DNA from: Bacteroidia bacterium
GTDB taxonomy: Bacteria; Bacteroidota; Bacteroidia; Flavobacteriales_D; Crocinitomicaceae
Direction of reading: 5' to 3'
NCBI GenBank assembly: GCA_030427935.1
Contig: JAUICI010000008.1
Span: forward strand, 1 to 57,122
DNA: 57,122 nucleotides
Of the stretch, positions 4,282 through 56,902 are shown in pieces; the stretch's first letter is position 1; the number at the start of each line of letters is the position of its first letter. The notes under the pieces were generated by a model. That model was not told where the DNA came from, searched no databases, and worked only from the letters and a program-made list of their open reading frames with translations. The position numbers were made by a program, and so were the translations under genes.

Positions 4282-6147
4282 ATGAACGATAAATACGATA
4301 TTATTGTCGTGGGCGCAGGACATGCTGGCTGCGAAGCAGCCAGTTCGGCCGGAAAAATGGGTATGAATGTTTTGTTGGTTACAATGAACATGAATACGAT
4401 TGCCCAGATGTCATGTAATCCTGCAACGGGAGGTGTAGCGAAAGGACAAATAGTTAGAGAGATCGACGCGTTAGGCGGTTTATCCGGAATCGTGTCTGAT
4501 CGCAGTTCGATCCAGTTTAGGATGTTGAACCGATCCAAAGGTCCAGCTATGTGGTCGCCACGTGCCCAGAATGATCGGTTTCTTTTTTCAAAATATTGGC
4601 GTGAAGAATTAGAAGCAAACCCTAACGTTCATTTTTGGCAGGATAGTGTTACAGGATTGTTGATTGATGGAGACAGTGTAATTGGAGTTTCTACAAAGCT
4701 GGGTGCTTCCATTTATGGAAAGAAAGTGGTCATTACTGCTGGCACTTTCATGAACGGTTTGATTCATGTTGGGTTGAATAATTTCGAAGGAGGTCGTGTT
4801 GGAGATGAAGCTAGTCTAGGTTTGTCAGATTCATTAACTGATTTTGGTTTTGAAATGGGTCGCATGAAAACAGGAACACCTCCTCGAGTTGATGGTAGAA
4901 GTTTGGATTATTCTAAAATGGAAGAACAACCTGGTGACGAAGCCCCTTCTAAGTTTTCGTTTGACAGCAAGATAAAACCTGTTTCCAACCAAAGAAGTTG
5001 TTGGATTACTTATACCAACCTGGAGACACATTCTATTTTAGAAGAAGGTTTTGATGAGAGCCCAATGTTTACTGGGAGAATTAAATCCTTAGGACCTAGA
5101 TATTGTCCATCTATCGAAGATAAGATCAATCGTTTTAAAGAGAGGGATCGTCATCAAATATTTGTGGAACCAGAAGGATGGGATACTTGTGAGATTTATG
5201 TGAATGGATTTAGTACAAGTTTACCAATGGATACTCAGTTTAAGGCGATCAAGACAATTCCAGGTTTTGAAAACGTGAAATTCTTCAGGCCTGGTTATGC
5301 TATAGAATATGACTTTTTTAACCCACAAGGCTTGGATCATACTTTGTGTTCAAAGAATCTAAGGAACCTGTATTTAGCAGGACAGGTGAATGGAACAACT
5401 GGTTATGAAGAAGCAGCTGCTCAAGGTCTCGTTGCTGGTATTAATGCATCGCTATCGGTTAAGGAAAAGGAACCTTTTATCTTAAGAAGAGATGAGTCTT
5501 ATATTGGGGTGCTTATTGATGACCTCGTGTTAAAAGGTACTGACGAACCTTACCGCATGTTCACATCAAGAGCAGAGTTTAGAATTTTATTGAGACAGGA
5601 TAATGCAGACGCACGTCTATCTCAGTATGGGTTTGAATTAGGTTTACTATCAAAAAGAAGGTATGAAGATTTTACTATTAAATATGATAAGATAAGCCAA
5701 GCCACTGATGATATTAAATCCTTAAGTGCAGACCCTAAGATTTTGAACACTTATCTAAAGGATAAAAATAGTTCTGAGTTAAAACAGAAAATGAAATATG
5801 ATAAGGTTATAAGTAGACCAAATGTTCATATTCAAGAGATGGCTCTAGAAGATGATAAATTGAATAGTACAATAATAGGTTTAACCTCAGAAGAGCTAGA
5901 ATCTTTAGAGATCTTAATTAAGTACGAGGGGTATATCAAAAGAGAAAAGGAAGTTGCTGAGAAAATGTTGAGATTGGAATCAGTTAAAATTCCTGCATCC
6001 TTAGAGTTTGAAAAATTAAGCAGTCTTTCTTCAGAGGCTGTAGAGAAATTAAATAATATTAAACCTCAAACAATCGGAGAAGCTAGTAGAATTAGCGGGG
6101 TGTCGCCTGCTGATGTATCAGTTCTTTTGGTTGCTTGTGGGAGATAA
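4282..6147 (+). CDS. mnmG: tRNA uridine-5-carboxymethylaminomethyl modification enzyme MnmG (GidA)
   Basis: A 621-residue, full-length FAD-dependent enzyme. With MnmE it installs (carboxymethyl)aminomethyl at U34 of several tRNAs. The N-terminal dinucleotide-binding motif GAGHAGCEAA is clear from about residue 11. Other family blocks are MSCNPATGGVAKG, GTFMNGLIHVG, GTPPRVDGRSLDYS, ATP/FAD-contacting NGTTGYEEAAAQGL, and the C-terminal tRNA-binding helical domain ending ISGVSPADVSVLLVACGR. MnmE is not in the window. The start codon 5 bp after a parS palindrome fits homologues. The gene is often linked to oriC and partition functions, which agrees with the two parS sites around it. Confidence 0.98.
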   Translation: MNDKYDIIVVGAGHAGCEAASSAGKMGMNVLLVTMNMNTIAQMSCNPATGGVAKGQIVREIDALGGLSGIVSDRSSIQFRMLNRSKGPAMWSPRAQNDRFLFSKYWREELEANPNVHFWQDSVTGLLIDGDSVIGVSTKLGASIYGKKVVITAGTFMNGLIHVGLNNFEGGRVGDEASLGLSDSLTDFGFEMGRMKTGTPPRVDGRSLDYSKMEEQPGDEAPSKFSFDSKIKPVSNQRSCWITYTNLETHSILEEGFDESPMFTGRIKSLGPRYCPSIEDKINRFKERDRHQIFVEPEGWDTCEIYVNGFSTSLPMDTQFKAIKTIPGFENVKFFRPGYAIEYDFFNPQGLDHTLCSKNLRNLYLAGQVNGTTGYEEAAAQGLVAGINASLSVKEKEPFILRRDESYIGVLIDDLVLKGTDEPYRMFTSRAEFRILLRQDNADARLSQYGFELGLLSKRRYEDFTIKYDKISQATDDIKSLSADPKILNTYLKDKNSSELKQKMKYDKVISRPNVHIQEMALEDDKLNSTIIGLTSEELESLEILIKYEGYIKREKEVAEKMLRLESVKIPASLEFEKLSSLSSEAVEKLNNIKPQTIGEASRISGVSPADVSVLLVACGR

Positions 6148-21807: not shown

Positions 21808-24800
21808 TTATTTTATTCGAAGGTCTAATGATAAGTTGGATTGCCTCAAATTAGGCCTTTGTTTTCCTTTTGATAGAAAATAAACCTGATTCGTTACATA
21901 GCTAAGAAGTTCTGAAATGTTTATGGTTCCGTCATTGTCAAGGTCTCCCTGATTCTCTCTTAAACCCTTCAATAAGCAATAAGTAAACAGCCCGTTTTTC
22001 CATTTGTCTCCCTCCATCGAAAACTCTACACCACTGGAGGAGGATAAGATGACGGCTCCATTATTTGTTCGGAGATCACTAAACAGCGCACTCATATAAT
22101 TTGCTTTTTGCTGATAAGCACTTGAATAGGACATCGAATTTGAACCTCTAAAAGTAATGTCTCCATCTTCAATTTTTTCCGTGTTTTGAACGACTTCATC
22201 TTCTTCTAGTTCTCCGGAATGACAAGTATCCATGAAAAGGACTTTGTTTATGGATGCGACTTCTGTTAAAAGGTCTTCTAATTCCTCGAAAGAGATACCA
22301 TTTTTAGCTGGATCTTGAAAGTCCATATTGTGCGTGGCGTAATAGTAATTGAACTGATCATCTAATACGCCATGACCAGCAATAAAGACGATAACAACAT
22401 CTTCTTCCTTAGCCGAAGAAAGGAATTTTTTAATGTCTTGAATTTTTTCTTTGGAGACTTCTTGGTTTGAAAGTAGTAGGTCGTGTATTTTATTAAATTC
22501 TTTTGATTGCGCAAGTTCGATGTAGAAATCTTTCGAATCTTTGGCCGCATATTTTAGGTTATAGGCTTTGTTCGAAAACTCTGAAACACCCAAAGAGACA
22601 ATGTACAAGTCTGGTTTGGTCTTTACATCATAAGTGATTTCATAATAATCTTTTAATCCATAATGATTGTTTTTGCTCGGGCAGATTTCTAGCTTATTCT
22701 TACCCGGTATTAGGGTATAAGTGATTTCCAGTTCATCACCTTTTCGTTTGACTTTTGGTTTGACCGGAACATTATTATTAAAAAAGGCCAAGTCATCTGT
22801 GCTGAATTCCTTGGGAAGCTCACATGTCATTTTAAGCTGCTGATCTTCTACTCGCACCGAATACTGACTTTTATTATTGAATTCGATGAAAGGCAAATTC
22901 AAATCAAATAATTCCCCGGTTTTCTTTTTTCTGGACAAGACTATCTCCTCGTAGAACTTTACGGTCTTGTCTTCAGAATATGGTGATTCTTTTAAAACAA
23001 GATCAGGACGATTAAATTCTAAATCAAAATAGGAGCCCGGGTAAACTTTATCTTTGAAATAAAAAGCCAGTTCTTTGTGGGCCGCATTGGATGAAATGTA
23101 GTAGCCATCATTATTCACGGCTACTGCCCCGTGGTCTTTTAAAGTATAGATTTCAAACACTTTTTCTAGACTCTCGTCGTTTCTAAACAATCGAATAATA
23201 CGATCATCTGCATTAATGGCGATGATTTTCTGATCAGGAGAGATCGCAATTTCATCGGTAATGGAATTGTCTATTTTAGTTTTAAAGATGACCTCTCCAT
23301 TCATTGGGTTGACCACTTGCAATTCTCTTGTATATCCTGCGATTACTGCTTTATTTGGATTCCCAATAAATTTAACCGTAGCTCCTTCTCCGGGCTTCAC
23401 TTTATTTCTTTGAACCACTTTTTTCTTGTCCAGATCATAAAGCCAGTATTCATTTTCTAAGGTTCCAGCAATCAGCATGTTTTCATGAATATCTGCATCG
23501 TTGAGGTCCCAGGGTAATTCTATGGACTTTCCGTTTAAATTCATTCCTTTGGGGTCGCCTGAAACAACGTATTTACCACTATTGTCTACACAGACAATTC
23601 TTTTGTTGTTTTTGTATTTTCCTATTCTGTTTCCATTTTTCAAATCATAGTGATAGATGAAATCACCTTTCATGTAGGCCAAGTAGTTTTCGTTATCTGA
23701 AATCAACAAATTGAAAGGGCGGAAAATGAAGGTATCAATCTTAACCAGAAACAGCATGGAGTTTAGGTCGTAATAGATTTCGTGATCATCGGCTTTAATC
23801 GAAGAAAATTGATAGGTGAGGTCTTCATAATTTTCGTTGAAAGCAGGCAAACTCGTAAAAATCCCCGTTTTTAAATCCCAATGATTGGAATAGTAACCCG
23901 AAAAGGCAATAGTAGAATCCGGGTGAAATTTTAACCATCTTGGGATATCTGACTCTTGTCTTAACAGTTTGTAAGGAACTCTTCTAGAGCTGGTGTCACC
24001 ATAATTGATCAAGTCCAGAATAGTGATGTTCAAGTCGGTTCCAACAACCGCAGCATATCTATCATCTCTAGAAAATTTACATTTCGTGATGAATGGGTGT
24101 GAACTTACAACAGCTTGTTTGATCATAGTTTCGAGTCGGATGATGTCTACATGCCCTTTGTCTTGACCACTAATCATCCATCGACCATCTGAAGACACAT
24201 CCACTTCGGAAACGACATCGTAATTGTCCATGATCTTTTTTGTAGGAGCGGGTAAGGCTCCAAGCGCTTTCATGTCTGGTAGTTGCAATAGCTCTGCTCT
24301 TCCACTACCTAAATGTAAAATCATGAGGCTTCGATCGGGTGAAAACCGGATGCTTTTTACGGGTGTTTCCATATTGTGATTGATATAGGCCTTCCCATCT
24401 TCAACACCTAGAGCTTTAAAGGTTCCGTTATTGTCTCCAGTGAAAAAGAGTTTGGAGTTTGTAGACAATACAGCTTCATTCAGGAAACTGCATTCAATCG
24501 TGTATTCTTTGTGCAGTTTGTTGGAATTCGCGTCATAGATTCTAACTTTTCCATTAGGTGAGGAAGCGATCCAAAAATTATTGTCTCGATCGTAGGAAGC
24601 ATGATATACAGGTGCGCCAAAATAAACACTTTGAATTAGTGTAAACTTCTGAGCATCCCAGACTTTTATTGTGGAATCTTCACTTACGGTAATGAAGCGG
24701 GTTCCAGGTTCGTTAACACTTACGGAGTGAATGGGACCAGTATGAGAATTGAGTGTTTTGATCGGTTTTTTGGAAGCAATATCCCAAATCACAATTTTTT

Positions 24801-24954
24801 GATCAAAGCCAACGGAGATAACTTTATCAGAATTCGCGTTAAAAGCCACATCTGCAATCAATAGATTATTGCCAGAAGGTGGAAGAATTCGCTTTGTTTG
24901 ACTCAATCCAAATAAAGAAATGAATGCAAACAGTATACATAAAATGAGTTTCAT
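21808..24954 (-). CDS. secreted WD40-repeat protein with caspase-family (C14) protease domain
   Basis: A 1048-residue protein from ATG 24954 (signal peptide MKLILCILFAFISLFGLSQ); a second ATG 9 bp upstream is possible. WD40 repeats occupy about residues 25-330 (KIVIWDIASKKPIKTLNSH and IKVWDAQKFTLIQ are typical blades) and further blades reach about 640. After a beta-rich linker, residues ~785-1040 form a caspase/metacaspase-like domain (LYIVSLGVSEF). Catalytic His861 lies in FIAGHG and Cys911 in MDTCHSGE, so the dyad is intact. A Gly-Asp calcium-like loop DLDNDGTINISELLSY lies near the end. It starts 36 bp after the MNIO partner gene. Probably a periplasmic or secreted sensor-protease; the substrate is unknown. 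Confidence 0.93.
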   Translation of the reverse strand: MKLILCILFAFISLFGLSQTKRILPPSGNNLLIADVAFNANSDKVISVGFDQKIVIWDIASKKPIKTLNSHTGPIHSVSVNEPGTRFITVSEDSTIKVWDAQKFTLIQSVYFGAPVYHASYDRDNNFWIASSPNGKVRIYDANSNKLHKEYTIECSFLNEAVLSTNSKLFFTGDNNGTFKALGVEDGKAYINHNMETPVKSIRFSPDRSLMILHLGSGRAELLQLPDMKALGALPAPTKKIMDNYDVVSEVDVSSDGRWMISGQDKGHVDIIRLETMIKQAVVSSHPFITKCKFSRDDRYAAVVGTDLNITILDLINYGDTSSRRVPYKLLRQESDIPRWLKFHPDSTIAFSGYYSNHWDLKTGIFTSLPAFNENYEDLTYQFSSIKADDHEIYYDLNSMLFLVKIDTFIFRPFNLLISDNENYLAYMKGDFIYHYDLKNGNRIGKYKNNKRIVCVDNSGKYVVSGDPKGMNLNGKSIELPWDLNDADIHENMLIAGTLENEYWLYDLDKKKVVQRNKVKPGEGATVKFIGNPNKAVIAGYTRELQVVNPMNGEVIFKTKIDNSITDEIAISPDQKIIAINADDRIIRLFRNDESLEKVFEIYTLKDHGAVAVNNDGYYISSNAAHKELAFYFKDKVYPGSYFDLEFNRPDLVLKESPYSEDKTVKFYEEIVLSRKKKTGELFDLNLPFIEFNNKSQYSVRVEDQQLKMTCELPKEFSTDDLAFFNNNVPVKPKVKRKGDELEITYTLIPGKNKLEICPSKNNHYGLKDYYEITYDVKTKPDLYIVSLGVSEFSNKAYNLKYAAKDSKDFYIELAQSKEFNKIHDLLLSNQEVSKEKIQDIKKFLSSAKEEDVVIVFIAGHGVLDDQFNYYYATHNMDFQDPAKNGISFEELEDLLTEVASINKVLFMDTCHSGELEEDEVVQNTEKIEDGDITFRGSNSMSYSSAYQQKANYMSALFSDLRTNNGAVILSSSSGVEFSMEGDKWKNGLFTYCLLKGLRENQGDLDNDGTINISELLSYVTNQVYFLSKGKQRPNLRQSNLSLDLRIK

Positions 24955-24990
24955 GTAAGTCATGTATTATTCAATATAAAGTAAAGGTAA

Positions 24991-25458
24991 TCAGATTTTT
25001 AGAAAGCGTCGCCACCGAGGTTTTGCATTAATTTTCTCTCCTTCTTGTTTGAGATAATTTCGAATCATGTGGACACGATCTGAAATATGTTCATTTAGCT
25101 TTGTTTCCAGATCTTTTGGCAAATGATTTTCGGCAAAGTTTAAGGCATCGTATTGATGTTTAAAAACACTCAAGCTTAAAGGAAATAGTTTAGCGTATTC
25201 AAAGTAAAATGTTCTCAAATAGCGAGCATCTTTTTCTTCTAATTGTAAGAGTTCTTTAACCACTCCCCACCTTTTTCGTAAAAGAGCTTGTGCGGCTTCT
25301 TCTATTTGTTCAGCTGAGAGTTCTTTAAGTCTGTTTTTGGTTTCAGCACTAATGACCTCCGTATCTAGAAAAAGATTTCTATCGGTTAAAAAGAAATGCC
25401 GTACCTCACTAGAGGTAAGTATTTTGGATAATATATGTTGATATTCCTCTAGACTCAT
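24991..25458 (-). CDS. small helical partner of the DUF692/MNIO enzyme
   Basis: A 155-residue, almost entirely helical, charged protein with no signal peptide and no cysteine. Its ATG overlaps the end of the DUF692 gene by 4 bp (stop and start interlocked), which usually means translational coupling and a protein complex. DUF692/MNIO enzymes typically need a small partner (for example MbnC or TglI) that binds the substrate peptide. I infer this role here from position, size and cytoplasmic character, not from sequence similarity that I can see. The C-terminus is basic (KPRWRRFLKI), which could contact membrane or a partner. Confidence 0.75.
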   Translation of the reverse strand: MSLEEYQHILSKILTSSEVRHFFLTDRNLFLDTEVISAETKNRLKELSAEQIEEAAQALLRKRWGVVKELLQLEEKDARYLRTFYFEYAKLFPLSLSVFKHQYDALNFAENHLPKDLETKLNEHISDRVHMIRNYLKQEGEKINAKPRWRRFLKI

Positions 25459-26285
25459 GAAAACAAGATTTCTTTTGCTCTTTTGGTTTCAGCTCTTAGT
25501 TCTTCCATGGGACCAAATTTGTTGTCTCTTTCCAAAACACTTCCTTTGAGATTTGGACAAAGAGGTTGAATATAGGACATCACTTCCCAAATTTCTTCTT
25601 GGGTAGGATAGGAGTGATTGTCAATGAGAAGGCTTCCTCTTTGGTCGTGCCCAACATAGTGAATTTGAACTACACGATTACAATCAATTTGATTCAACCA
25701 TTCTTTATAATCATACCCATGGTTTTTTGAATTGATGAAAAGGTTTGTAATGTCGAGTAGCATTCCGATTTCTGGGTTTGAGTCGAACAGTTTTCTTAAA
25801 AACTCGGCCTCTGTCATTTCTTGAATCGGGTCGTTCAAAACATAAGTGATGTTTTCTAGAATAAGAGGAGTTTGAATATAGGACTGAACCTTTTCAATGT
25901 TTTTTGTGAATACATCTAGTGCTTCTTGAGAATAGGGTAAGGGCGTTAAGTGACCAATATTTAAACCATGACATTCGGTAAATGCAATATGTTCACTCCA
26001 ATAAGGAGGGTTGATTACTTCCAGAACAGAAGCAATTTTTTCAATATAAGATTCTTTTATGCCTTCTGCACTCCCAAGAGAAAGCCCGATGAAATGGGGA
26101 ATGGCTGTGTATTCAATCAAAAGGTCATGGAGTTCTTCTTTCATATAAGGCGCCTTGCCCATGAAGTGTTCTCCGATAACCTCCACAAAATCTATCTGAG
26201 TATGATCAAAGATGAGTTCGTCTTTAATAGCCCTTCTATAACCTATTCCAGAGCCCAATTTTGGTATGTTTTTGATTTCTTTCAA
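25455..26285 (-). CDS. DUF692 family multinuclear non-heme iron-dependent oxidative enzyme (MNIO)
   Basis: A 276-residue TIM-barrel enzyme of the MbnB/TglH/ChrH group. Family blocks are GSGIGYR (11-17), EVIGEHF (35-41), PHFIGLSLGS (63-72), WSEHIAF (96-102), LTPLPYS (113-119), LENITYVL (143-150), LLDITNLFINSKNHG (176-190), IHYVGH (208-213), DNHSYP (222-227) and LERDN (251-255). They carry the His, Glu, Asp and Asn residues that hold two or three iron ions in this family. Known members oxidise or rearrange cysteine residues of peptides. The only usable start is TTG 26285, because a stop lies upstream and the GSGIGYR block requires it. It sits between a Cys-tailed membrane protein and a coupled partner. 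Substrate is inferred, not shown. Confidence 0.9.
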   Translation of the reverse strand: MKEIKNIPKLGSGIGYRRAIKDELIFDHTQIDFVEVIGEHFMGKAPYMKEELHDLLIEYTAIPHFIGLSLGSAEGIKESYIEKIASVLEVINPPYWSEHIAFTECHGLNIGHLTPLPYSQEALDVFTKNIEKVQSYIQTPLILENITYVLNDPIQEMTEAEFLRKLFDSNPEIGMLLDITNLFINSKNHGYDYKEWLNQIDCNRVVQIHYVGHDQRGSLLIDNHSYPTQEEIWEVMSYIQPLCPNLKGSVLERDNKFGPMEELRAETKRAKEILFS

Positions 26286-26333: not shown

Positions 26334-27305
26334 TTAACCACAACCTCCGCAGCCGCCACATCCACCACCACAAGAGGAGCAACTTGAGCAAGAGGAACAA
26401 GAAGAGCAAGAGCTACAGGAAGAAGCTGCCGCTGCTGCCGCCGCTGCTACTGCCGCCACATAAGCTGTGGTTCCGATTTCAAGTACTTTTGAAGCGTTCA
26501 ATAAGTTGCCGTCAAAAATGAGGTGTTTACTATTCACTGCTGCTTTCATCTCATCTTCATGGGAGCGTATTTCTTTAATTTTGGCTGTTGAATAATACTT
26601 TTCTTCTAGTTTTTTACAATATTTCTTACCAGCAGACGTCAAGCCTTGTTTTTTGAAAGTGCCTAAAAATGAAGGGATGAAAACCGCAAATGCGACAATT
26701 TCAAAAATCAGGAATTGCACATTGGCATAACCTCTTGAAAGCGCAATAATCAGCTTAATTAGACCCGGCAAAGCAATCAAAATTCTCACTGTCCACAGCA
26801 AAGATTTTTGGCTACTTCTATAAGCTTCATCGTACATAAAGCCAGACTCTTCCCAGTCGTACTCATATCGTTGGAAGGCTCTAGAAAATTTTGATTTTAC
26901 AGTTGAAGAATTGCAATAGTCCAAGAAATCTTGGAAGTCATTTTGACCATCTTTGAGCAGTTCATAGACAATACGCTCTACTTCCTTCAGTTTATTCGGG
27001 TCTGGTCTTTTCGAGTTTTCGACCATCTTAATGGCCACTTTTGTTCGGGATGAATTTAAGTTGAGTTCAATGTATCTTTTGGAATACAAATTGAGAACGG
27101 CAAATTCAATCAGCTGGTTATAGTCTTTCGCAATGTAAGTATAAGAATAGCCGTCGATATTGGGTACGTCCATTCTTCTTTTTTTAGGCTGTTTGAATAA
27201 GGGAATTAGCAAGTAAATCACCAAAATCAATGCAGACCAAGCGGCAAAAAGTCCTAAGAAAACAGGGCCTTTAATACTTCCGATAAAATCAATAATCAAA
27301 TACAT
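26334..27305 (-). CDS. TIGR04222-type membrane protein with Ala-rich linker and nine-cysteine C-terminal tail
   Basis: A 323-residue protein. One membrane helix lies near residues 14-36 followed by basic PLFKQPKKRR. A soluble domain spans about 45-165. Two more helices lie at about 170-190 and 195-216, followed by the KKQGLTSAGKKYCKKLEEKYY block typical of TIGR04222 proteins. By the positive-inside rule the tail should be cytoplasmic. After an eight-Ala run (287-294), the last 29 residues are six consecutive SSC triplets, then GGGC, GGC, GGC and G, giving nine Cys. This looks like a RiPP-core-like or metal-binding tail. The adjacent MNIO enzyme makes modification of these cysteines the obvious hypothesis. 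Its ATG is 1 bp from the upstream gene. Confidence 0.88.
   Translation of the reverse strand: MYLIIDFIGSIKGPVFLGLFAAWSALILVIYLLIPLFKQPKKRRMDVPNIDGYSYTYIAKDYNQLIEFAVLNLYSKRYIELNLNSSRTKVAIKMVENSKRPDPNKLKEVERIVYELLKDGQNDFQDFLDYCNSSTVKSKFSRAFQRYEYDWEESGFMYDEAYRSSQKSLLWTVRILIALPGLIKLIIALSRGYANVQFLIFEIVAFAVFIPSFLGTFKKQGLTSAGKKYCKKLEEKYYSTAKIKEIRSHEDEMKAAVNSKHLIFDGNLLNASKVLEIGTTAYVAAVAAAAAAAASSCSSCSSCSSCSSCSSCGGGCGGCGGCG
26337..26423 (-). repeat. tandem SSC/GGC-encoding repeat (Cys tail)
   Basis: Twenty-nine codons at the 3' end of the membrane-protein gene encode six SSC units followed by GGGC-GGC-GGC-G. Ser, Cys and Gly codons vary (TCT, TCC, AGT, TCA, AGC; TGT, TGC), so the pattern is kept at protein level and is not a young DNA repeat expansion. 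Both triplet blocks keep Cys at every third residue except for one extra Gly at the junction. Confidence 0.85.
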
Positions 27306-27306
27306 A

Positions 27307-28014
27307 TTAATGGCTGTCGATTAGATGGATTAGTTCGTTCAAAGTGCCTCTATATTTGTGAAACAGTTCTAAAAAAGCTTCGTCGTTCAGGTTGACTTCA
27401 TTTTGATTCCATTTCATCAAGGTTTTAACAGAATCAAGGTTGATGTTTAAATCCGAAGAAATCAAGCTTATAATTTCATCATAATTTGTTACGATCTTCT
27501 CCTTTTTCAGCATGATGATTACCTCAAGATTGTTCATTAAAGGATAGATTGTTTTGCGCGTTTCCATTCTCACATGCCCTAGATCGCCTCCCTTTTTCAC
27601 AAAATTGAATCTCAATCTTAAGGCCATGTTTCGCAACTCTTGTTCGCATCTTAACCTCAAATTTTCCTGATGAACTTCAACTTTGTCAAATGGATCAGAA
27701 CCAACCAGTACTTTATGATTTTGAGAAATATCTAAAAATTTAATTGGATATACGTCCGCTGATTTTTGGAGTTCATCCATGGTTAAAATGAATGGAAGAA
27801 TCTCGCTATCGGTTTCTTTTTCAATGAGCTCACTTAGTCCATCTAAAACTTGCGCCTCAACCTTGTCAAAAATGAAGAGCAGACTAAAACTAGCTTCATT
27901 AAAGTCCTTAATTCGAAGATGTTTACCGTATAGTAATAAGCTCTGCGTATTTTCTGCAATAGAGGATTCTTTGAGCTTATTAACAAAAGCCTCTAGTTTG
28001 TTTTCGTAGTTCAT
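27307..28014 (-). CDS. nucleotidyltransferase-like protein heading the MNIO operon, unknown function
   Basis: A 235-residue soluble protein. The N-terminal part (SLLLYGKHL, then SLLFIF and LPFILTMDEL) has the strand-turn pattern of MNT-type nucleotidyltransferase folds, but the GSx...DxD catalytic signature is not complete, so activity is doubtful. The C-terminal ~110 residues are helical with Arg/Glu-rich segments, compatible with a HEPN-like or four-helix domain. It begins the minus-strand operon and ends 1 bp before the Cys-tailed membrane protein, implying coupling. The fold guess is weak; the gene itself is secure. Confidence 0.7.
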   Translation of the reverse strand: MNYENKLEAFVNKLKESSIAENTQSLLLYGKHLRIKDFNEASFSLLFIFDKVEAQVLDGLSELIEKETDSEILPFILTMDELQKSADVYPIKFLDISQNHKVLVGSDPFDKVEVHQENLRLRCEQELRNMALRLRFNFVKKGGDLGHVRMETRKTIYPLMNNLEVIIMLKKEKIVTNYDEIISLISSDLNINLDSVKTLMKWNQNEVNLNDEAFLELFHKYRGTLNELIHLIDSH

Positions 28015-30480: not shown

Positions 30481-30675
30481 TTATTTTAAGATCAACTTAT
30501 CAACCTTTGTTTCTTTTGTGTCTTCGTTTAAAATTTTCACATTGTAAGTTCCTCTTTCCCAAGCTGAGATGTTTAGAACTATTGGGTTGTCTGTTGAAAC
30601 TTTGTCCAGCATCACTTTCCCTTTCTTCCAAGGTTTTTTCCAGAATTGGAGACGCTTTGAGTCATTAATTATCAT
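30481..30675 (-). CDS. 64-residue frame resembling the end of a T9SS sorting domain
   Basis: ATG 30675 opens a 64-residue frame whose start interlocks with the stop of the preceding head-GIN gene (11-bp overlap, different frame). The last ~35 residues (NPIVLNISAWERGTYNVKIL, ending VDKLILK) have the spacing of the final two strands of a T9SS type A sorting domain (LxxGxYxVKI...KKLIxx). The VYPNP start of such a domain is missing, and there is no signal peptide. It could be a small coupled gene, a decayed remnant, or the tail of the head-GIN protein reached by frameshifting. Confidence 0.45.
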   Translation of the reverse strand: MIINDSKRLQFWKKPWKKGKVMLDKVSTDNPIVLNISAWERGTYNVKILNEDTKETKVDKLILK

Positions 30676-31465
30676 CGATGACAGATCCGTCTCCGGAGAT
30701 GTCTGTTGTGATCGTTGGAAAGCCTTTGTAAAAAATATTTCCATAACCACTTATCGAAATATCTAATGTGCTATCCGCTTTTACACGCATACTGGCACTT
30801 CCGATGGCATTGCATTTGGTGTGGTAAGTATCCAAAGGGTAAGCGTAAATATTTCCAACGCCATCGACCTGAAGCTCTGATCTCCTTGCAAAACCGTATA
30901 AAGCGAGATCACCTGAACCAGAGATAATACCATAATTTACATTTGCAGTCAAGTTTTGGAGATGAATGTCTCCATCCCCAGAGATCAAAGAAAACATTGT
31001 AGATGCATCCATCTGATTCACGTTGATCATTCCGGTTCCACTAATTATCAATTCACTTCTATCTAAGTTGGTGTTGGTCGTTCGATTAATATTTATCTCA
31101 CCCTCTCCTTTAATGACATAATCTTTCACCAGTTTTGAGTTGACCGTAATTGTAATTTGATCATAATTTGTGATGGTATAGCCTTCTTTCAAACCAAAAA
31201 TCAAAGTGCTGTCGTCTACATAAACTTCCATGGCCTCCATGACTTCATCGCTTGAGTTTACGATAATCGTATGCTGCAAACTGTCTTCCGTATAATTGAG
31301 AATGCCACCAGATCTTAATTCAATACGGTTGAATGCTGGTAATGGAATCAGATGATCGGTCTTATCTCCTTTACTAGCATCCACTTTTTTACAGGCAGTA
31401 CTGAAAAGGCTAAAAAATACTATGGCAATAAGGAATCTTAAAATGGCTAATGCTTTTAGACAAAT
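30665..31465 (-). CDS. head-GIN domain (DUF2807) lipoprotein without a canonical start codon
   Basis: The frame encodes a lipoprotein signal (FLIAIVFFSLFSTAC, lipobox Cys) followed by a DUF2807/head-GIN beta-helix domain with repeated SGxG turns (ISGTGMINV, ISGDGDIHL, ISGSGDLAL, ISGYGNIFY, ISGDGSVID). A GTG at 31384 would exclude the whole lipoprotein signal. Upstream the frame stays open to 31465 but contains no ATG, GTG or TTG; only ATT 31463-31465 could start it. I give the longest frame as the extent. It is paralogous to the gene at 31939. It follows gene 31480 by 14 bp. Either ATT is used, or the start codon was lost and the gene is decaying. Confidence 0.7.
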   Translation of the reverse strand: MCLKALAILRFLIAIVFFSLFSTACKKVDASKGDKTDHLIPLPAFNRIELRSGGILNYTEDSLQHTIIVNSSDEVMEAMEVYVDDSTLIFGLKEGYTITNYDQITITVNSKLVKDYVIKGEGEININRTTNTNLDRSELIISGTGMINVNQMDASTMFSLISGDGDIHLQNLTANVNYGIISGSGDLALYGFARRSELQVDGVGNIYAYPLDTYHTKCNAIGSASMRVKADSTLDISISGYGNIFYKGFPTITTDISGDGSVIDDN

Positions 31466-31938: not shown

Positions 31939-32655
31939 TTAGTTAGCGTCAATTACACTTCCGGAACCAGAAATTTCTTGGGTAACGGATGGGTTTCCTT
32001 TGTAGTAAACATTCCCCGACCCAGAAATTAAAACATCAAGAGCGGTGTTCACTCTACACTCAATCGTACCAGAACCCGTAAGTTTCGCTTCTGTATTATC
32101 CGTATTTAAATTGAAGTTAGCAATTGTACCACTTCCTGAAAGGAGAATATCTGAACCAGTTGAAACGCCTTCAAGCGCCATGTTTCCAGAACCAGATATT
32201 TTGGCGTCTAAGGTACCATTGTGATCAATATTATAGGCATGTATACTACCAGAACCCGATATTTCATATTTACCATTGGCAAATTGAGTTGAATTCATGT
32301 TTGCTGAAATGGAACCCGAACCAGAAATAATGAATTGACTAACATCAGGGTGTGATATATAGATCTTCACATTATCTCCATTTTGAATGGTAATATTTTT
32401 CTTCACTTTGATCACTAAGGTTGTCCCAGATACCTGAAATTCAAGGGCATCAAAAACTTCTTGTGAGGTCATTACCGTAATGGAATTGGTAGTGTCATTG
32501 GTGTACATAATCGTTCCAACACCTTGTAGATTAATCGCATCAAAAGAAGAGACATTTACTTGAAATTCAAGTTGCTCCCCTTCCAGGGCATCAATTTTTT
32601 TACAGGAAGTCCCGATTAAAACAAGAGGTAGGAGTAAAATCAATAGCTTTTTCAT
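31939..32655 (-). CDS. head-GIN domain (DUF2807) lipoprotein
   Basis: A 238-residue lipoprotein with signal MKKLLILLLPLVLIGTSC and Cys18 as the lipidation site. The mature protein is a right-handed beta-helix-like head-GIN/DUF2807 domain with at least six SGSG turns (ISGSGSISANM, ISGSGSIHAYN, ISGSGNMALEG, LSGSGTIANFN, ISGSGNVYYKG, ISGSGSVIDAN). Such proteins are presumed to act as envelope adhesins or scaffolds in Bacteroidota; no enzyme role is known. It follows the CHAT protease gene by 72 bp and is a better preserved paralogue of the gene at 30665-31465. Confidence 0.9.
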   Translation of the reverse strand: MKKLLILLLPLVLIGTSCKKIDALEGEQLEFQVNVSSFDAINLQGVGTIMYTNDTTNSITVMTSQEVFDALEFQVSGTTLVIKVKKNITIQNGDNVKIYISHPDVSQFIISGSGSISANMNSTQFANGKYEISGSGSIHAYNIDHNGTLDAKISGSGNMALEGVSTGSDILLSGSGTIANFNLNTDNTEAKLTGSGTIECRVNTALDVLISGSGNVYYKGNPSVTQEISGSGSVIDAN

Positions 32656-32727: not shown

Positions 32728-35634
32728 TTACCTCAACAACACAAATGCAGCCCAAAAATAAGGGTCGTATTTTTTGGAGAACTTTAGTTGTGTAGCACGA
32801 AATGCTTCTTCAATAGGATTTCCATCAACTAGTTTGGAGTAAAATGTTGCCATGAACTCAGCAGTTTCCTTATCTGGAACTTGCCAAAGACTCATGATAA
32901 TGTTTTTGCAGCCTGCCATTTTAAAGGCTCTTTGTAAACCATACACCCCTTCTGATCCTTGTATGTCTCCTAGCCCCGTTTCACAGGCAGACATCACAAC
33001 AAGTCTCGTTTTTCTCATATCAATATGGGCGACTTCGAGGGCTGTTAGCACGCCATCATTTCCGTCTTTGCCCTTGTTCTCTTGAGCATTCGCATTAGCA
33101 AAAACAAGTCCGGAACGTATCATTGGGTTTGAACTTTTTACAAATGAACTCATTGCTTGTCCACGATCACCTCCTCTAAATTTAACGTCGGAAACTTCCG
33201 TTTCTAATTGTTTGAATGCTTGTTCAGGATCTGGATAAAAGAACCCATGAGTTGCAACATGCAGAATATCACTATTTGAAGCGATAGATTTGAACTGAAA
33301 TTCAGACGCCAACAAATCCTCGAATAAATTAACCTCAAATTTCTTTTTCAGTAGTATTTTTTGGATTTTTTCGGCTTCTGTTTTTGTGCCCTCCAGATAA
33401 CCCCAAATCCCAATTCCTTGATCGTTTTTGTTGTAATTAATTCCCCCAAAAATTGAAATTTTAGCATGTTGATGCAAGGCTTTTAATGTAGGGTTTATAT
33501 TTGAAGTACTTCCAATACGCTGAAGTTTATATTGAGAGGCTAGATAAATGTTTTGAGAGTTTCGAATTCCAGAAAAACTTACTTTATGTAACAAACCATC
33601 TGGGGAATAATAGATAGTTTTAATTCCCTCAAGTTCTTTTTGGATTGGCTTCCAAATGAGTTCAAATAGTTTTGACCCTCCTCCATCTTTTTTACCGTAG
33701 ATTTTTTCTACATAGTTTTTATTATTTCCACCAAACACATCTATAATTTCGATGAGATTCTCTTCGGAAAACAACTTAATGATCAAGGGTTGTTTAAAGT
33801 TCTTTTTTATTAGAAGCGCGCAGTATTGGTACGTGTCGTTAAAGTCATTAATTCCCTTTCCATCAAACTCGCGATATCTAAGAAATTCGATGGCGGCTTC
33901 GTTTGTTTTCAGTTTATTTCTAACATCCTTCCATTGATTATCCAAAACCAAATTAAAATCCGAAAAATCAGTAGATTTTGCAACCAAATTGGATTCGAGG
34001 GAATCTGCTTTGTCTTCCAGGAGTTTGATGTTTTGCTTCCTGTATCTTTCAGGAACCGCATATAATCCATCAATTTGTTTTTTCAGCTTAAGCCATTGTT
34101 CATAATCTTTGATTAGAGATGAGTCCTTTGAGTTTAATACGATGTTTCTCATTGCGGTGGATGACTTTAAAAGAAGGCCCTTGGTCAACAAGATATTGTC
34201 ATAAACCTGCCTTGATATACTGGGCTCTTTTTCCGAATATTCGATTGCAAATGAGTAGAACTTCATAAAAACGTCAGACTGTTCATTCATAAAGTTTTCT
34301 TTTTCGCTTTCAGAAATGAATGAGAAATTACTTTTTAACTTTTGTTGGATTAGTTGTAGCTCTTCGCTTAAATAAGAGAAAGCATTTTTCATATTGCCCT
34401 TAAACCAATTAACGCTTCCTAAATTTCTTAAGGCGTCTTCTTTTCTCAGTACAGAGCCAATATCACTGGCAATTTCATATGATTTTTTGGCATAATAGTC
34501 TGTGGAGTCTAAATATTGGGATTGTAAAGGCTCTCCTTTTTTCAATCTAGTCGCTAAAATTCGATAATTCGAAGCAAGGCTGTTTTTACTAATTGTTAGG
34601 GAATATAACCTTCCATTTTCTGTATATAATTGATCGGCCAAGTAGACATATTCTAGGGAGGCTTGGATTAAACTATCGTGTATTTTGTCGTTCGTGTTTT
34701 TGTAGTATTGGGCACAAGATTTCAAAAAGCTACTCAAGTTCGAGGTATTTGCCGCTATTCCCGCCTTGTCTTGAATTTCTGTACAAGTCTTTAATGCTTT
34801 TTTGAAATGCTCATAGGCCTGGTTTAGCAAGCTATCTCGTATTTGAGGTTGATTGCTATGTTCTTCTGCCAATTCAGCATATTCAATGGCGATGTTTTCT
34901 AAGTTAATACCCTGTGTATATTTCCCTCCAGTTTTGGTCGAAATTTCAAGGGCTTTTTGGTGATATTCAAGTGATTTCAAATGTGATCCTTGTTCAGAAT
35001 AAATAATGGCAATATTTCCGTAATCATATCCAATAGCTTTTTCCAAACCAAGTTTTTGATGCAGTTTTAAAGCAATTTGGAAATACTCGTTTGCTTTTTT
35101 AAAATCTCCAAGGTCCAAATAGATATTTCCGATATTGCCGCAATTGTTCGCATACACTTTATCATTTCCTAAATCTCTGCTGATTTCAGAAGCTTGAGTT
35201 AAGTATTTGAGCGCTTTTTGATAATCTCCACCTCTTCGAAACATCGTGCCCATATTGTTGAGAACATTGGCTTCTCCCTTTTGGTATTTTTCTTTTCGAA
35301 AGATTTTAAGTGCAGTTTCAAAATCCAACAAGGCTTCTTCGTTCATCCCTAATTCCTTCTTACACCAACCAATATTATTTACAACATTGGCTCTGGGAAG
35401 CGCTTTGTTAGAGTCTATATAGATTGATTCAGCCTTTTTATAATGCAGAATGGCTTTTTTAGGATTTCTTTTTTTCAACTCATCACCGATCGCATAATTC
35501 GTTTTTGCGATTTTCAGAACGTCATTAGATTGCTCAATTTTTTCCAGATGAGCCAATAGTGAATCCAATTTCGATTGTGAAAAAGAGTTAGCGGCAAATA
35601 AAAAAACCAGTAAAATAAGAATGTGATACCTCAT
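32728..35634 (-). CDS. secreted TPR-CHAT protease (first copy)
   Basis: A 968-residue protein from ATG 35634, which starts a signal peptide (MRYHILILLVFLFAANSFSQ); the longer frame adds 7 residues. Tetratricopeptide repeats fill about residues 40-430 (NNIGWCKKELGMNEEALLDF, YGNIAIIYSEQGSHLKSLEY). A helical linker follows, and then the C-terminal CHAT domain (about 650-968). The caspase-like dyad is complete: His796 in LHVATHGFF and Cys884 in MSACETGLGD. The motif GVYGLQRAFKMAGCKNIIMSLWQVPD follows. It lies 49 bp downstream of an AraC regulator on the same strand and precedes the head-GIN genes. A secreted peptidase activated through its TPRs is the simplest reading; its substrate is unknown. 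Confidence 0.93.
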   Translation of the reverse strand: MRYHILILLVFLFAANSFSQSKLDSLLAHLEKIEQSNDVLKIAKTNYAIGDELKKRNPKKAILHYKKAESIYIDSNKALPRANVVNNIGWCKKELGMNEEALLDFETALKIFRKEKYQKGEANVLNNMGTMFRRGGDYQKALKYLTQASEISRDLGNDKVYANNCGNIGNIYLDLGDFKKANEYFQIALKLHQKLGLEKAIGYDYGNIAIIYSEQGSHLKSLEYHQKALEISTKTGGKYTQGINLENIAIEYAELAEEHSNQPQIRDSLLNQAYEHFKKALKTCTEIQDKAGIAANTSNLSSFLKSCAQYYKNTNDKIHDSLIQASLEYVYLADQLYTENGRLYSLTISKNSLASNYRILATRLKKGEPLQSQYLDSTDYYAKKSYEIASDIGSVLRKEDALRNLGSVNWFKGNMKNAFSYLSEELQLIQQKLKSNFSFISESEKENFMNEQSDVFMKFYSFAIEYSEKEPSISRQVYDNILLTKGLLLKSSTAMRNIVLNSKDSSLIKDYEQWLKLKKQIDGLYAVPERYRKQNIKLLEDKADSLESNLVAKSTDFSDFNLVLDNQWKDVRNKLKTNEAAIEFLRYREFDGKGINDFNDTYQYCALLIKKNFKQPLIIKLFSEENLIEIIDVFGGNNKNYVEKIYGKKDGGGSKLFELIWKPIQKELEGIKTIYYSPDGLLHKVSFSGIRNSQNIYLASQYKLQRIGSTSNINPTLKALHQHAKISIFGGINYNKNDQGIGIWGYLEGTKTEAEKIQKILLKKKFEVNLFEDLLASEFQFKSIASNSDILHVATHGFFYPDPEQAFKQLETEVSDVKFRGGDRGQAMSSFVKSSNPMIRSGLVFANANAQENKGKDGNDGVLTALEVAHIDMRKTRLVVMSACETGLGDIQGSEGVYGLQRAFKMAGCKNIIMSLWQVPDKETAEFMATFYSKLVDGNPIEEAFRATQLKFSKKYDPYFWAAFVLLR

Positions 35635-35683
35635 AATTTTGACTTGAAGCCACAAATTTAGAAGTAATTAAAAGATTTGAGCA

Positions 35684-45554: not shown

Positions 45555-48500
45555 TTATTCAATTAAAACAAAAGCAGCCCAAAAGTAAGGGTCGTATTTG
45601 GATTTCATTGCATTTTGCGTTTTTTCAAAAGCAAGGCGAATATTCAATTTTTTAGAAATGAGATTATCGTATAGTATTTCCATGAATTCCTTGGTTTCAC
45701 GGTCTGGTACTTGCCATAAACTCATAACGATATAGTTGACACCAGCTATTTTAAAGGCTCTTTGTAAACCATAAACCCCTTCTGCTCCATTAATGTCTCC
45801 AAGTCCGGTTTCGCAGGCTGACAAAACAACCAATTTCATTTTTTGCAGCTCCAGATTCGAAACTTCTCTAGCAGTTAACACACCATCTTCCTGATTGGGA
45901 AAACTCTCTAAATTCCAAACTTCATTTGCCTTTGCCAAGGCGAGTCCACTTCTCATCATTGGATTTCTGTTTTTTAACAAAGAATAATAACCAAAGCCTC
46001 TAGTTCCTCCTCTGCTATTTCCTCTAAAAATAAGGGTTGAATCCACAGTAGTTTCAATATTCTTCCACAATTCATCTGGGTCTGGATAAAAATAGCCATG
46101 CGTAGAGATGTGAGCAATCATTGAATTTGGTAGTGCTTTTTTGATGTTCTCCTCTGAGGCTAGGGTATCACTATAAATCTTATTGCTTATTTTATTCTTG
46201 TCTAAAATGAATTTAATGCTGTTGATCTCTTCACTTGTTCCAGGTAAATAAGACCAGATTTCATCTTCAACTTTGAGGCTGTTGTATTTTACTCCTCCAA
46301 TTAGCGTAGCATTTAAGTTGTCGTCCAAATTCATTTGAGTCTCGTTTCCAATTATGGCTGTTGTGCTCATCAATTGAATGGAATAATTATCCGATAAATA
46401 CCAGTCTTTAGAGCCAATAGCAGCAAATGATACACGGTGCAATATGCCATCTGGGGAATAGTAAACTTTGGATCCTTTCGGTATATATTTTTCAATTGGT
46501 GCCCAAATAAGTTTGTATAGAGCACTATTTTTTTTCTTTTTACTGCCGTAAATCGAGTTCGATTTAACAAAGTCAGAACCGGTTACATCTTGGTAGATGT
46601 TGACCAGATCTTTTTCCTTGAATAAGTTAACCATAATGGGATATTCACAGGATTGATTTACAATGAGCGCCGCGTATAGAACAGAATCTTTTTTCTCAAA
46701 CATACCTGCATTGAACCGCACAAATTCGATGGCTAGTTCATTTTTCTTTAAATGTTTTTGGACTTTTTTCCAACTATAAGATTGATCAGAATTTTCATCA
46801 GCAAAAACAGAAGAAGCTTGTGCTAGTTCTCTTTCCAGTTGATCCGCTTTTTCCTTCCAGGATTTGAGGTCCTTATTTTGCTTACTCAATAATTTAGACT
46901 GTTCCTTGGTTATCTTTTTTCGAAACTTCATCCAATCTTGATATTTCTGAATCAAGTTAGGGTCTCCACTACTCAAAATAGCAAAGCGCATGCGTGTGGA
47001 AGATTTTAAAAGAAGCCCTTTATGCATGAGCAAATTGTCATAGGTCACCGCCGTAATTTCTGGGTTTTTTTCCTTTCGAATATTGGAAAAAGCGTATAAA
47101 CTTCTGAAGCTTTGATCTACATTTTTTATATAATTGACTTGTTCTTGTTCTGTAGTGAATGAAAAGCTTTTCTTAATTCTTGCCTTATTGATTTTCAGGT
47201 TTTCTTTCAAATAGTTTTCAGACAAATCTAAATCCCCTTTTCTTGTATAAAATTGATGTGCTCTTAAGAAGGAATAAGCCAATTTTGGGTGATTCCAGCT
47301 ATACTTCTTTTTCCTTGAAGAAATCGCTTTATCAAAATATACAATAGCCTTTTCATTGTTCTTCATTTGATCATAAAGCATGGCCAAATTCAAGAAATTT
47401 CTGGAGTATAAGCGAGACTCCACACCAAATTTGTTTTTATAGATTTCTTGAGCTTTTTCATAATAGTCAAGCGCTTCCTCATTATTTTCAAGGTAGAAAT
47501 TCAAAACACCTAGGGAGACACATGCGTAGGCATAGTTAGTATTTTCTGTTCCTACGACCTTTTCCATGATTTCACGCTGCAACTCGTAGGCTTTCTGAGC
47601 TTCGTCATAATTCTTGAGTTTCATTTGAGCCAAACCAACATCTCCACAAGCATAGGCATAATCCAAATGTTCTTCTCCCAGGACATTCTTCAAAATCTCC
47701 TTTTCTTCGCGATAGGCTTCCAAGGCTTTTTCGTAATTGTTGATTTTGACGTATAACTGACCCAAATTTGCCATTCCAATGGCGTAGTCAAAATGATTTT
47801 TTCTCCCTGTGTTCTCGAGGATTTCTAAATTTTCTCGTCCATATTTTAAAGCGTTTTGATAGTCGCCAACGAGGCGATAAATTCCCCCAATATTGGAACA
47901 AACGGCGGCATAATCTGGATGCGTTTTGCCCAAGACCTTAGCTCTGATGGCTTTGGTTTCCTTATAATTTTCCAAAGCTTTATCATAGTCTCCAACAACG
48001 GTAAAATACATGCCTAAATTAAAACAAGAATGCGCATAATCAGCGGTCTCTTTTCCTGTTGAATTTGCCTCAATATTTTTTGCTGCGAGCAGGTTTTCAT
48101 AGGCTTTATCAAACTGATTCATGTCTAAATAAACAATACCTAAAGACTTCAGAGTTTGGGCTCTTCTGGGGTCTTTTGACTCGAAGATTTGTTCATCGTA
48201 TTCCTTTAATTCAAGATAGAGCTTTAATGCTGCATCGAATTCGCCCAGTTTGCTCAAATAATGTCCCATTTCGAGACTAATCCGACGGTATTTATCATTC
48301 TTCTTTCCAATGCTTTCTGCAATTGCGGTTCGAGCCTTATTCAGATAGTTGTAGCATTCTTTAAAGTTTCCTTCATTTTCAAAAGAGGGAACCAGTCGTT
48401 GACAAGCATTTGCGTAAATAGTGTCTTTAATTTTTCCTTTGGATTCAAGGATTTCAATTTGTTTAAGTCCGAAGATCTTGGCACTGTCTAGATGCCCTTT

Positions 48501-48602
48501 TTCAAGATGGTATTGGCTTAGACGGTCAAAATCTTGCCAAGTTTTTTGGGCGTTTAGGAAATTGACAAAGGTCAAAAACGCAATTAGGTATATGGATTTC
48601 AT
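45555..48602 (-). CDS. secreted TPR-CHAT protease (second copy)
   Basis: A 1015-residue protein with signal peptide MKSIYLIAFLTFVNFLNAQ. At least eight TPRs of 42-residue period (kinesin-light-chain-like, for example YAAVCSNIGGIYRLVGDYQNALKY) span about residues 40-430. A coiled linker follows to ~640, then the CHAT domain to the end. The catalytic residues are His835 in AHISTHGYFYPD and Cys930 in LSACETGLGD, with GVYGLQRAFKIAGVNYIVMSLWQVPD downstream. The domain architecture and C-terminal motifs are the same as in the copy at 32728, but the TPR arrays differ. It heads a transcript followed by VTT, propeller and WG-repeat genes. A caspase-like secreted protease; the activating ligand is unknown. 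Confidence 0.93.
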   Translation of the reverse strand: MKSIYLIAFLTFVNFLNAQKTWQDFDRLSQYHLEKGHLDSAKIFGLKQIEILESKGKIKDTIYANACQRLVPSFENEGNFKECYNYLNKARTAIAESIGKKNDKYRRISLEMGHYLSKLGEFDAALKLYLELKEYDEQIFESKDPRRAQTLKSLGIVYLDMNQFDKAYENLLAAKNIEANSTGKETADYAHSCFNLGMYFTVVGDYDKALENYKETKAIRAKVLGKTHPDYAAVCSNIGGIYRLVGDYQNALKYGRENLEILENTGRKNHFDYAIGMANLGQLYVKINNYEKALEAYREEKEILKNVLGEEHLDYAYACGDVGLAQMKLKNYDEAQKAYELQREIMEKVVGTENTNYAYACVSLGVLNFYLENNEEALDYYEKAQEIYKNKFGVESRLYSRNFLNLAMLYDQMKNNEKAIVYFDKAISSRKKKYSWNHPKLAYSFLRAHQFYTRKGDLDLSENYLKENLKINKARIKKSFSFTTEQEQVNYIKNVDQSFRSLYAFSNIRKEKNPEITAVTYDNLLMHKGLLLKSSTRMRFAILSSGDPNLIQKYQDWMKFRKKITKEQSKLLSKQNKDLKSWKEKADQLERELAQASSVFADENSDQSYSWKKVQKHLKKNELAIEFVRFNAGMFEKKDSVLYAALIVNQSCEYPIMVNLFKEKDLVNIYQDVTGSDFVKSNSIYGSKKKKNSALYKLIWAPIEKYIPKGSKVYYSPDGILHRVSFAAIGSKDWYLSDNYSIQLMSTTAIIGNETQMNLDDNLNATLIGGVKYNSLKVEDEIWSYLPGTSEEINSIKFILDKNKISNKIYSDTLASEENIKKALPNSMIAHISTHGYFYPDPDELWKNIETTVDSTLIFRGNSRGGTRGFGYYSLLKNRNPMMRSGLALAKANEVWNLESFPNQEDGVLTAREVSNLELQKMKLVVLSACETGLGDINGAEGVYGLQRAFKIAGVNYIVMSLWQVPDRETKEFMEILYDNLISKKLNIRLAFEKTQNAMKSKYDPYFWAAFVLIE

Positions 48603-56347: not shown

Positions 56348-56830
56348 ATGAAAATTAGATTCGGACATAGAATAACAGCTGCTCTTCTAGCGGTTTTAAT
56401 GTTAAGCTCTTCTTTTGGCTTGTCTATGGACGTTCACTTTTGTGGAGGGGAGATTAAAAGCTTCAGTTTTTTTGGACAAGCTGAAAAATGCAAAATGTCT
56501 GAAGCAATAATAGAGAAAAAGTCGGCAAAGAACGCCTGTTGTCAGTCTCTAGAGAGTACTAAAATTCAAGAAACTAGGAAATGTAATCATAGCTCTAAGG
56601 TAAAAGGCAATTGCTGTCATAATGAAACTTTTAGTATTGATGTTTCTGATTCTTATGAAGGAGATCAGTTCACTTTGAACTTAAATCATTCTTTAGTTTT
56701 TACTTCTCATAGTTTTAATACTCAATTCACTTTCTCTGATTTCAAAAGTGAATTAGATTACTTCCATTATTATCACCCCCCTCCTTTGGATCAGGACGTT
56801 CAGGTTCTGTTTCAAGTCTTTAGAATTTGA
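56348..56830 (+). CDS. HYC_CC_PP family exported protein, metal-efflux associated
   Basis: A 160-residue protein with an N-terminal hydrophobic signal (residues ~8-25). The family signature is in order: a His-x-Cys near residue 31 (DVHFCGG), CC pairs near residues 59 and 84 (NACCQS, GNCCHN) and a C-terminal YHPPPL. Such proteins accompany CusA/CzcA-type efflux genes in Bacteroidota, and here the RND pump gene starts 72 bp downstream. The Cys and His residues suggest binding of a soft metal in the periplasm. Metal identity is not shown by the sequence. Confidence 0.85.
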   Translation: MKIRFGHRITAALLAVLMLSSSFGLSMDVHFCGGEIKSFSFFGQAEKCKMSEAIIEKKSAKNACCQSLESTKIQETRKCNHSSKVKGNCCHNETFSIDVSDSYEGDQFTLNLNHSLVFTSHSFNTQFTFSDFKSELDYFHYYHPPPLDQDVQVLFQVFRI

Positions 56831-56902
56831 TTTTATTTTTTGATAACGCTCAGCATCTTGTAGATGTTTGGGCTTTTTGTGTTTGTCAAAAAAAATAAAG
56901 TC

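Follow-up and report, generated by a model that had tools for sequence, protein, structure and literature searches.

Subsets of TIGR04222 proteins have been proposed to be modified by MNIO enzymes on their C-terminal Cys-rich regions (Antoine et al. 2025, PMC12452194). In that account, more than 1,000 Cys proteins without a signal are encoded before MNIO genes, and 40% of them are TIGR04222 proteins; the tails of the latter are placed in the periplasm, and the nature of the potential modification is left for investigation. The same paper notes that MNIO products besides thiooxazole exist.

For a different type of substrate, Gadgil et al. (2026, PMC13097082) report that an MNIO and its partner (FonBC) install seven 5-thiooxazoles in a peptide with EGKCG repeats, and that the thiooxazole product binds copper. 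Directly after Cys, the native Gly can be replaced only by Ala; most other substrate variants are processed. The portions of PMC12452194 and PMC13097082 drawn on here contain no chemical data on a TIGR04222 protein, and a literature search on periodic-Cys RiPPs produced nothing relevant among the matches listed.

We analyzed a stretch of 57,122 nucleotides from a Bacteroidia bacterium (family Crocinitomicaceae; contig JAUICI010000008.1), called the window below. It encodes a membrane protein with a Cys-rich tail that shares with the systems of PMC12452194 its membrane segments, the Ser/Gly-rich composition of the tail, an adjoining MNIO, the lack of a DUF2063 match, and a candidate PME-type 2 partner. 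Because this kind of cassette is already described in that paper, the window cassette is another case of a known pairing; codon evidence and the regular Cys spacing are the additions made here. There are also differences. The paper deals mostly with Actinomycetota, and the word "Bacteroidota" is absent from its main text, whereas the window is from Bacteroidota. Cys spacing in the window is almost perfectly three, and the charge pattern of the protein leaves the membrane side open, in contrast to the periplasmic location given in the paper.

Fontiphorin, oxazolin and bufferins ("captophorins", PMC13097082) resemble the window system in having an MNIO, a partner (in the window, a candidate) and many Cys. 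EGKCG-type captophorins further carry Cys in repeats with a small residue after each Cys, as does the window tail. However, captophorin and bufferin precursors have signal peptides and DUF2063 partners (PMC12452194), whereas the window protein is multi-pass, does not match DUF2282, has neither EGKCG nor Cys-Lys in its tail, and has no DUF2063 match in its genome; it thus falls outside these precursor types. The ACGX and Cys-every-fifth systems (TIGR04340, NF038107) are named for periodic Cys like that of the window tail, but they use radical SAM enzymes, and none was recognized in the window cassette.

A Cys-tailed membrane protein and an MNIO gene in one cassette

The cassette consists of four genes on the minus strand, in the order 235-aa gene, TIGR04222 gene (after 1 base), MNIO gene (after 48 bases), and 155-aa gene (sharing 4 bases with the MNIO gene). 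The TIGR04222-type membrane protein (323 aa; positions 26334..27305), which is the proposed substrate, scores 44.4 bits with the TIGR04222 (near_uncomplex) model, marginally above the cut-off of 43, and 40 bits with PF20990 (cut-off 33). A six-frame genome search with TIGR04222 did not recover this protein; thus, its assignment to the family is marginal.

Hydropathy indicates three clear hydrophobic segments (residues 16-34, 169-187 and 196-214), followed by a low-complexity C-terminal tail. An Ala-rich stretch (residues 284-294; 26424..26456, minus strand) precedes the Cys-rich part. It is a helix in a low-confidence model and is kept in the orthologue described below. Being only weakly hydrophobic (Kyte-Doolittle value 1.6, octanol scale unfavorable), it is a possible but doubtful fourth membrane segment. 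The AlphaFold2 model of the whole protein has a mean pLDDT of 60, with most of the tail below 50. Positively charged flanks of membrane segments tend to mark the cytoplasmic side (the positive-inside rule). Within 15 residues there are five Lys or Arg past segment 1 and four past segment 3, so that by this rule the region after segment 3 would be cytoplasmic.

The MNIO family protein (276 aa; 25455..26285, minus strand), the putative tail-modifying enzyme, has a TTG start that aligns with the ATG of its orthologue. Its PF05114 score is 244.8 bits, against a gathering cut-off of 25. It was aligned to the solved chains 3bww and 8hci (DUF692 family) and to MbnB, and the motifs SEH, ENxTY, LDxxNxxxNxxNHG, IHxxGHD, DxH and LERD, which we take to hold the metal ligands, align with 3bww.

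The 155-aa protein (24991..25458, minus strand) is a candidate PME-type 2-like partner. It follows the MNIO gene, its model is helical (pLDDT 68.6), and by eye it carries a KR...YA...P...DA..FA pattern that is common to frames after MNIO genes in Actinomycetota. An hhalign comparison with those frames gave a weak result (probability 7%, P 0.005). The protein has no match to a Pfam partner family, including DUF2063. Its model found no Foldseek match at E ≤0.001, the best VIA-align Z score was a middling 6.9 over 53 residues, and no MNIO partner structure appeared among the fold matches listed for this model of pLDDT 68.6, which does not argue against a partner role.

The 235-aa protein (27307..28014, minus strand) is a conserved cassette member for which Pfam gives no match with E ≤1, and its lack of a known family leaves room for an enzyme role. 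A WD40 and caspase-domain protein (21808..24963, minus strand) is encoded 27 bases downstream of the 155-aa gene and could be specified by a fifth cassette gene.

A second genome of the same genus (G001) contains the cassette genes in identical order. There, the 155-aa protein is 46% identical, the 235-aa protein 57% identical, and the WD40-caspase protein, in the same place, 73% identical. An extra TIGR04222-like paralogue (L007:6978-7880; 25 bits, below the cut-off) lies between the first TIGR04222 protein and the MNIO. It ends in a short DSCSSCDSCSCSE tail, with Cys gaps of 3,3,2. Thus, the MNIO lies in a tight cassette with a Cys-tail protein in both genomes of the genus, in each of which a single PF05114 match was found. 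Neither genome has a DUF2063 match (E up to 0.001).

Elsewhere in the window, at 56348-57122 and approximately 30 kb from the cassette, a protein of the HYC_CC_PP family (82 bits) is encoded. After it there is the possible start of a CusA/CzcA efflux pump, a weak match of 15 bits that is cut by the end of the window. The window further encodes two TPR-CHAT proteins (32731-35655 and 45558-48602) and two paired DUF2807 (head GIN) proteins (30668-31381 and 31942-32655).

Spacing and possible function of the tail

The Cys tail, SSCSSCSSCSSCSSCSSCGGGCGGCGGCG, comprises codons 295-323 of the 323-aa frame (26337..26423, minus strand) and is followed by the stop codon TAA at 26334-26336. It has the form (SSC)6-GGGC-GGC-GGC-G, with 29 codons and nine Cys. 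Our codon table agrees exactly with the coordinates and codons in the preliminary description of this DNA: Ser is encoded by TCT (6), TCC (3), AGC (1), TCA (1) and AGT (1), Cys by TGT (5) and TGC (4), and Gly by GGT (4), GGA (2) and GGC (2). That description also placed Cys at every third residue, which holds for seven of the eight gaps (3,3,3,3,3,4,3,3); the single gap of four results from the GGG before Cys316. When the 29 residues were shuffled, at least seven gaps of three arose in 1 of 200,000 trials. The residue after Cys is Ser in five of nine cases and Gly in four.

We consider it about an even chance that the tail is the substrate region of a TIGR04222 membrane protein, acted on by the MNIO to produce a membrane-tethered array of soft-metal ligands from oxidized Cys. 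The 29 residues would be the core region, and the adjoining MNIO, helped by the 155-aa protein, would oxidize several or all of the nine Cys. The product would most likely be 5-thiooxazoles, as in bufferins and fontiphorin, and the metal probably copper(I); both are extrapolated from those systems. Small Ser and Gly residues on either side of Cys would leave the chain mobile and suit the enzyme, and the three-residue spacing would set the density of ligands and not constitute a strict code. Action of the MNIO on this tail is inferred. Only one MNIO was found in each genome of the genus, and the other two short cassette proteins contain a single Cys in all (1 and 0). The MNIO is the only recognized modification enzyme in the cassette. 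Among the points against MNIO action on the tail, Ser, which follows five of the nine Cys, is absent from the residues reported to be accepted by FonBC after Cys (PMC13097082).

Cys tails and MNIOs in other genomes

The preliminary description linked the tail to an MNIO enzyme, and this link is supported by the tight cassettes in the genus, by examples in Actinomycetota, and by the published proposal for TIGR04222 proteins (PMC12452194). In a Tsukamurella record (NZ_LR134462), a TIGR04222 protein (128 bits) with a Cys tail is encoded directly before an MNIO, and the two genes are annotated as TIGR04222 and then DUF692. The annotated TIGR04222 gene (L100:4055-5986) corresponds to two TIGR04222 copies, and the Cys tail of the first copy is in another frame. 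In Nonomuraea, a Cys-tailed TIGR04222 protein (93 bits) likewise directly precedes an MNIO. In Streptomyces (L099), the MNIO and a partner-like frame come first, and the TIGR04222 protein that follows them (120 bits) has no Cys tail. In another Tsukamurella record (NZ_LR134459), the MNIO is followed by a small Cys-tail protein with no TIGR04222 match. This small protein (L112:5913-6182) lies between the MNIO and a partner-like gene, is annotated as hypothetical, and has no NCBIfam match. In Nonomuraea, Streptomyces and NZ_LR134459, the frames that follow the MNIO have a common KR...P...YA...DA pattern, and none of the three matches DUF2063.

These Actinomycetota cases come from plasmid records, 354 of which were matched by the window MNIO and 357 by the Tsukamurella MNIO. 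Thirteen places were picked by eye among the matches listed, and the cases are therefore examples that give no rate. A tblastn search of plasmids with the Tsukamurella TIGR04222 protein found only the protein itself, and a scan of viral contigs with the Tsukamurella MNIO found nothing.

Within the phylum, a TIGR04222 search of 395 genomes gave 15 matches, three of them over the cut-off. Because this search missed the window's own protein, 15 is a lower bound. The window MNIO matched 25 of the 395 genomes of the phylum (window genome included) and 23 of 339 genomes of the order (both genomes of the genus included). In flanks of approximately 1.5 kb around the loci examined in phylum and order (some matches in the order came without a locus), no further MNIO was found beside a Cys tail of the Ser/Gly type; at several of these loci, other Cys-rich proteins adjoin the MNIO. 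A search of a genome-contig collection with the window protein found one relative only. A protein of G068 matches the window protein mainly via the tail and is not a TIGR04222 match; a match in G050, also mainly via the tail, was dropped as chance composition. A loose DNA pattern of six Cys codons in nine-base steps matched 135 of the 395 genomes and was set aside as uninformative: many places among the matches listed are microsatellites or simple repeats, and a reversed control also matched several genomes.

Six genomes of one genus (g52, family f17) outside the order of the window organism but in the same class (L104-L109) encode TIGR04222-like proteins that score 20 to 28 bits, under the cut-off in every case. 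As in the window protein, hydrophobic segments are accompanied by a tail of Ser, Gly and Cys. These tails differ from that of the window in their (CGSS)n form, with Cys gaps mostly of four, and in that four of the six genomes yielded no MNIO. The codons of the units are diverse in five of the six. In L109, a radical SAM frame (4674-5864) nearest to the YhhB/FxsB models lies approximately 1 kb downstream of the TIGR04222-like gene, along with frames that by eye resemble transporters. This frame was not adopted as a tail enzyme; it is absent at the matching place in the close relative L104.

The regular spacing does not extend to homologues outside the genus, and irregular Cys positions in homologues, named in the preliminary description as a refuting condition, do occur there. 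Cys gaps are 6,5,7,6,6; 5,8,3,3,3,3; 5,6,11; and 9,6,5 in the Actinomycetota tails (3 to 11 in the MNIO-linked tails of Tsukamurella and Nonomuraea), mostly fours in g52, and irregular in the G001 paralogue. A near-strict period of three throughout a long tail was found only in the genus of the window organism, in both of its genomes. Elsewhere, three-residue spacing is seen in parts of two tails (Tsukamurella and G068) and in that of G474, which has three Cys. The feature common to these tails is instead a Ser/Gly-rich composition, in which small residues adjoin most Cys. The earlier proposal that the conserved spacing reflects a required protein feature is supported in part: the tail is kept at the protein level in the genus, and a general spacing rule is not supported.

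An alternative already raised in the preliminary description is that the tail acts independently of the MNIO. In this case, the unmodified Cys would themselves bind a soft metal in the manner of a metallothionein, and the MNIO would act elsewhere or only tune the tail. Spaced Cys with small linkers suit thiolate clusters. Eight genomes beyond the two of the genus, with Cys-rich Ser/Gly tails of similar make-up (TIGR04222-like or other), were searched for an MNIO, and none was found in six of them (G119, G180, G385, G420, G068 and G474), which speaks for this alternative. However, in both genomes of the genus the tail and the sole MNIO found share one tight cassette, where the other two short proteins offer almost no Cys. 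We regard a metallothionein-like tail as possible but somewhat unlikely.

The tail could also be the substrate of other Cys chemistry, such as disulfides, thioethers made by radical SAM enzymes, or a different MNIO product, with a role in assembly or envelope stress and not in metal storage. Support for this comes from G474, in which a TIGR04222 protein of 51 bits (L103:3221-3676) ends with the three-Cys tail GCGGCGGCGGG. A radical SAM/SPASM frame (L103:3703-4704) begins approximately 23 bases further on; the ACGX system model scores best for it and the SbtM model ranks near the top, both below their cut-offs. No MNIO was found in this genome, which is 77% complete. TIGR04222 scaffolds may thus pair with different Cys-modifying enzymes, and the existence of MNIO products other than thiooxazole (PMC12452194) also leans this way. 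In the window cassette, however, the MNIO is the only modification enzyme recognized, next to a 235-aa protein without a family, and another chemistry seems unlikely.

Phylogeny of MNIO proteins

In a tree of 42 MNIOs, six enzymes from two phyla, labeled beforehand as linked to TIGR04222 or similar tails, are set apart from the rest by a branch whose support is not strong (92/79) and at which long branches meet. The other side holds 36 enzymes (28 from Bacteroidota and eight from Pseudomonadota). Four of the six have cassette proteins that exceed the TIGR04222 cut-off by their own score (window, Tsukamurella NZ_LR134462, Nonomuraea and Streptomyces L099, the last without a Cys tail). The fifth row belongs to the cassette of the G001 orthologue, and the sixth, L112, later proved to lack a TIGR04222 match. 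In a first tree of 37 rows, a Streptomyces MNIO with another kind of neighbor (L098) fell inside the TIGR04222-linked set. For the second tree, the long rows L098, L091 and L071 were dropped and the eight Pseudomonadota rows were added; the one-sided grouping is therefore due partly to the omission of L098.

Selection on the tail

A tail of this composition might be a low-complexity repeat that slippage has extended and that has no function under selection. The orthologues do differ by one unit, with six SSC units in the window protein and five in the G001 protein, which indicates that units are gained or lost. Nevertheless, no two of the six units of the window tail have the same DNA sequence. 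On average, pairs of units are identical at a fraction of 0.667, compared with 0.614 ± 0.063 for random codons chosen according to codon usage in the window (P 0.22), and the five units of the orthologue are similarly unremarkable (P 0.14). Among unit-likeness tests of nine tails, only L105 exceeds chance (P 0.023), which is approximately what nine tests may yield. The statement in the preliminary description that the tail is not a recent trinucleotide expansion is thus upheld, and the nucleotide-level test proposed there reveals no simple slippage in the tail units of either genome, even though whole units come and go.

Comparison of the two orthologues, the only pair available, indicates what has been retained. 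In the tail, 25 of 26 aligned residues are identical, with one G to S difference, whereas the body is 58.9% identical over 282 positions (Fisher P 7e-5 for tail versus body). The Ala-rich stretch, with 10 of 12 residues identical, was excluded from both counts. Identity of codons depends on which SSC unit is taken to be missing, and is 5, 6, 7, 8, 8 or 6 for units 1 to 6, respectively. Independent choice of codons would give 8.4 ± 2.2 matches, and the observed agreement is thus at chance level. If unit 1 is the missing one, seven of eight aligned Cys positions have TGT in one genome and TGC in the other, a silent difference. Four-fold sites in five genes are 25-33% identical between the orthologues, compared with 26-27% expected from composition, and are therefore near saturation.

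Because silent sites are saturated and yet 25 of 26 tail residues are kept, the tail is under strong selection as a protein. The observation that the Cys pattern persists despite diverse codons, which prompted this analysis, therefore extends to the second genome. The number of units drifts, by one whole SSC unit between these two genomes, while the register holds. Slippage is refuted as a sufficient explanation, and we consider a tail without selected function very improbable. That the tail is the core of a bacteriocin (thiazolyl peptide or heterocycloanthracin) matured by a YcaO enzyme is scarcely credible, as the matches that suggest it (TIGR03892, 17.9 bits, cut-off 25; TIGR03601, 12.2 bits, cut-off 35) are below cut-offs and probably driven by composition, and neither genome has a YcaO match (E up to 0.001).

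Conclusions

The comparison of codons provides direct evidence that a tail of this kind is selected, as opposed to having arisen by low-complexity drift. A bolder form of the MNIO-substrate proposal, which we consider distinctly unlikely, is that the tail is a near-regular ladder with as many as nine copper(I) sites of the thiooxazole type, one for every three residues, which a multi-pass protein would hold permanently at the inner membrane, facing the cytoplasm. If this were true, the tail would face the compartment of the MNIO, contrary to the periplasmic placement in PMC12452194. The mature product would then be a membrane-bound protein and not a released peptide, and gains and losses of 9-base units would adjust the number of ligands. 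In any case, the short, regular and strongly conserved tail, together with its compact cassette, makes this protein a convenient substrate on which to test TIGR04222 modification.
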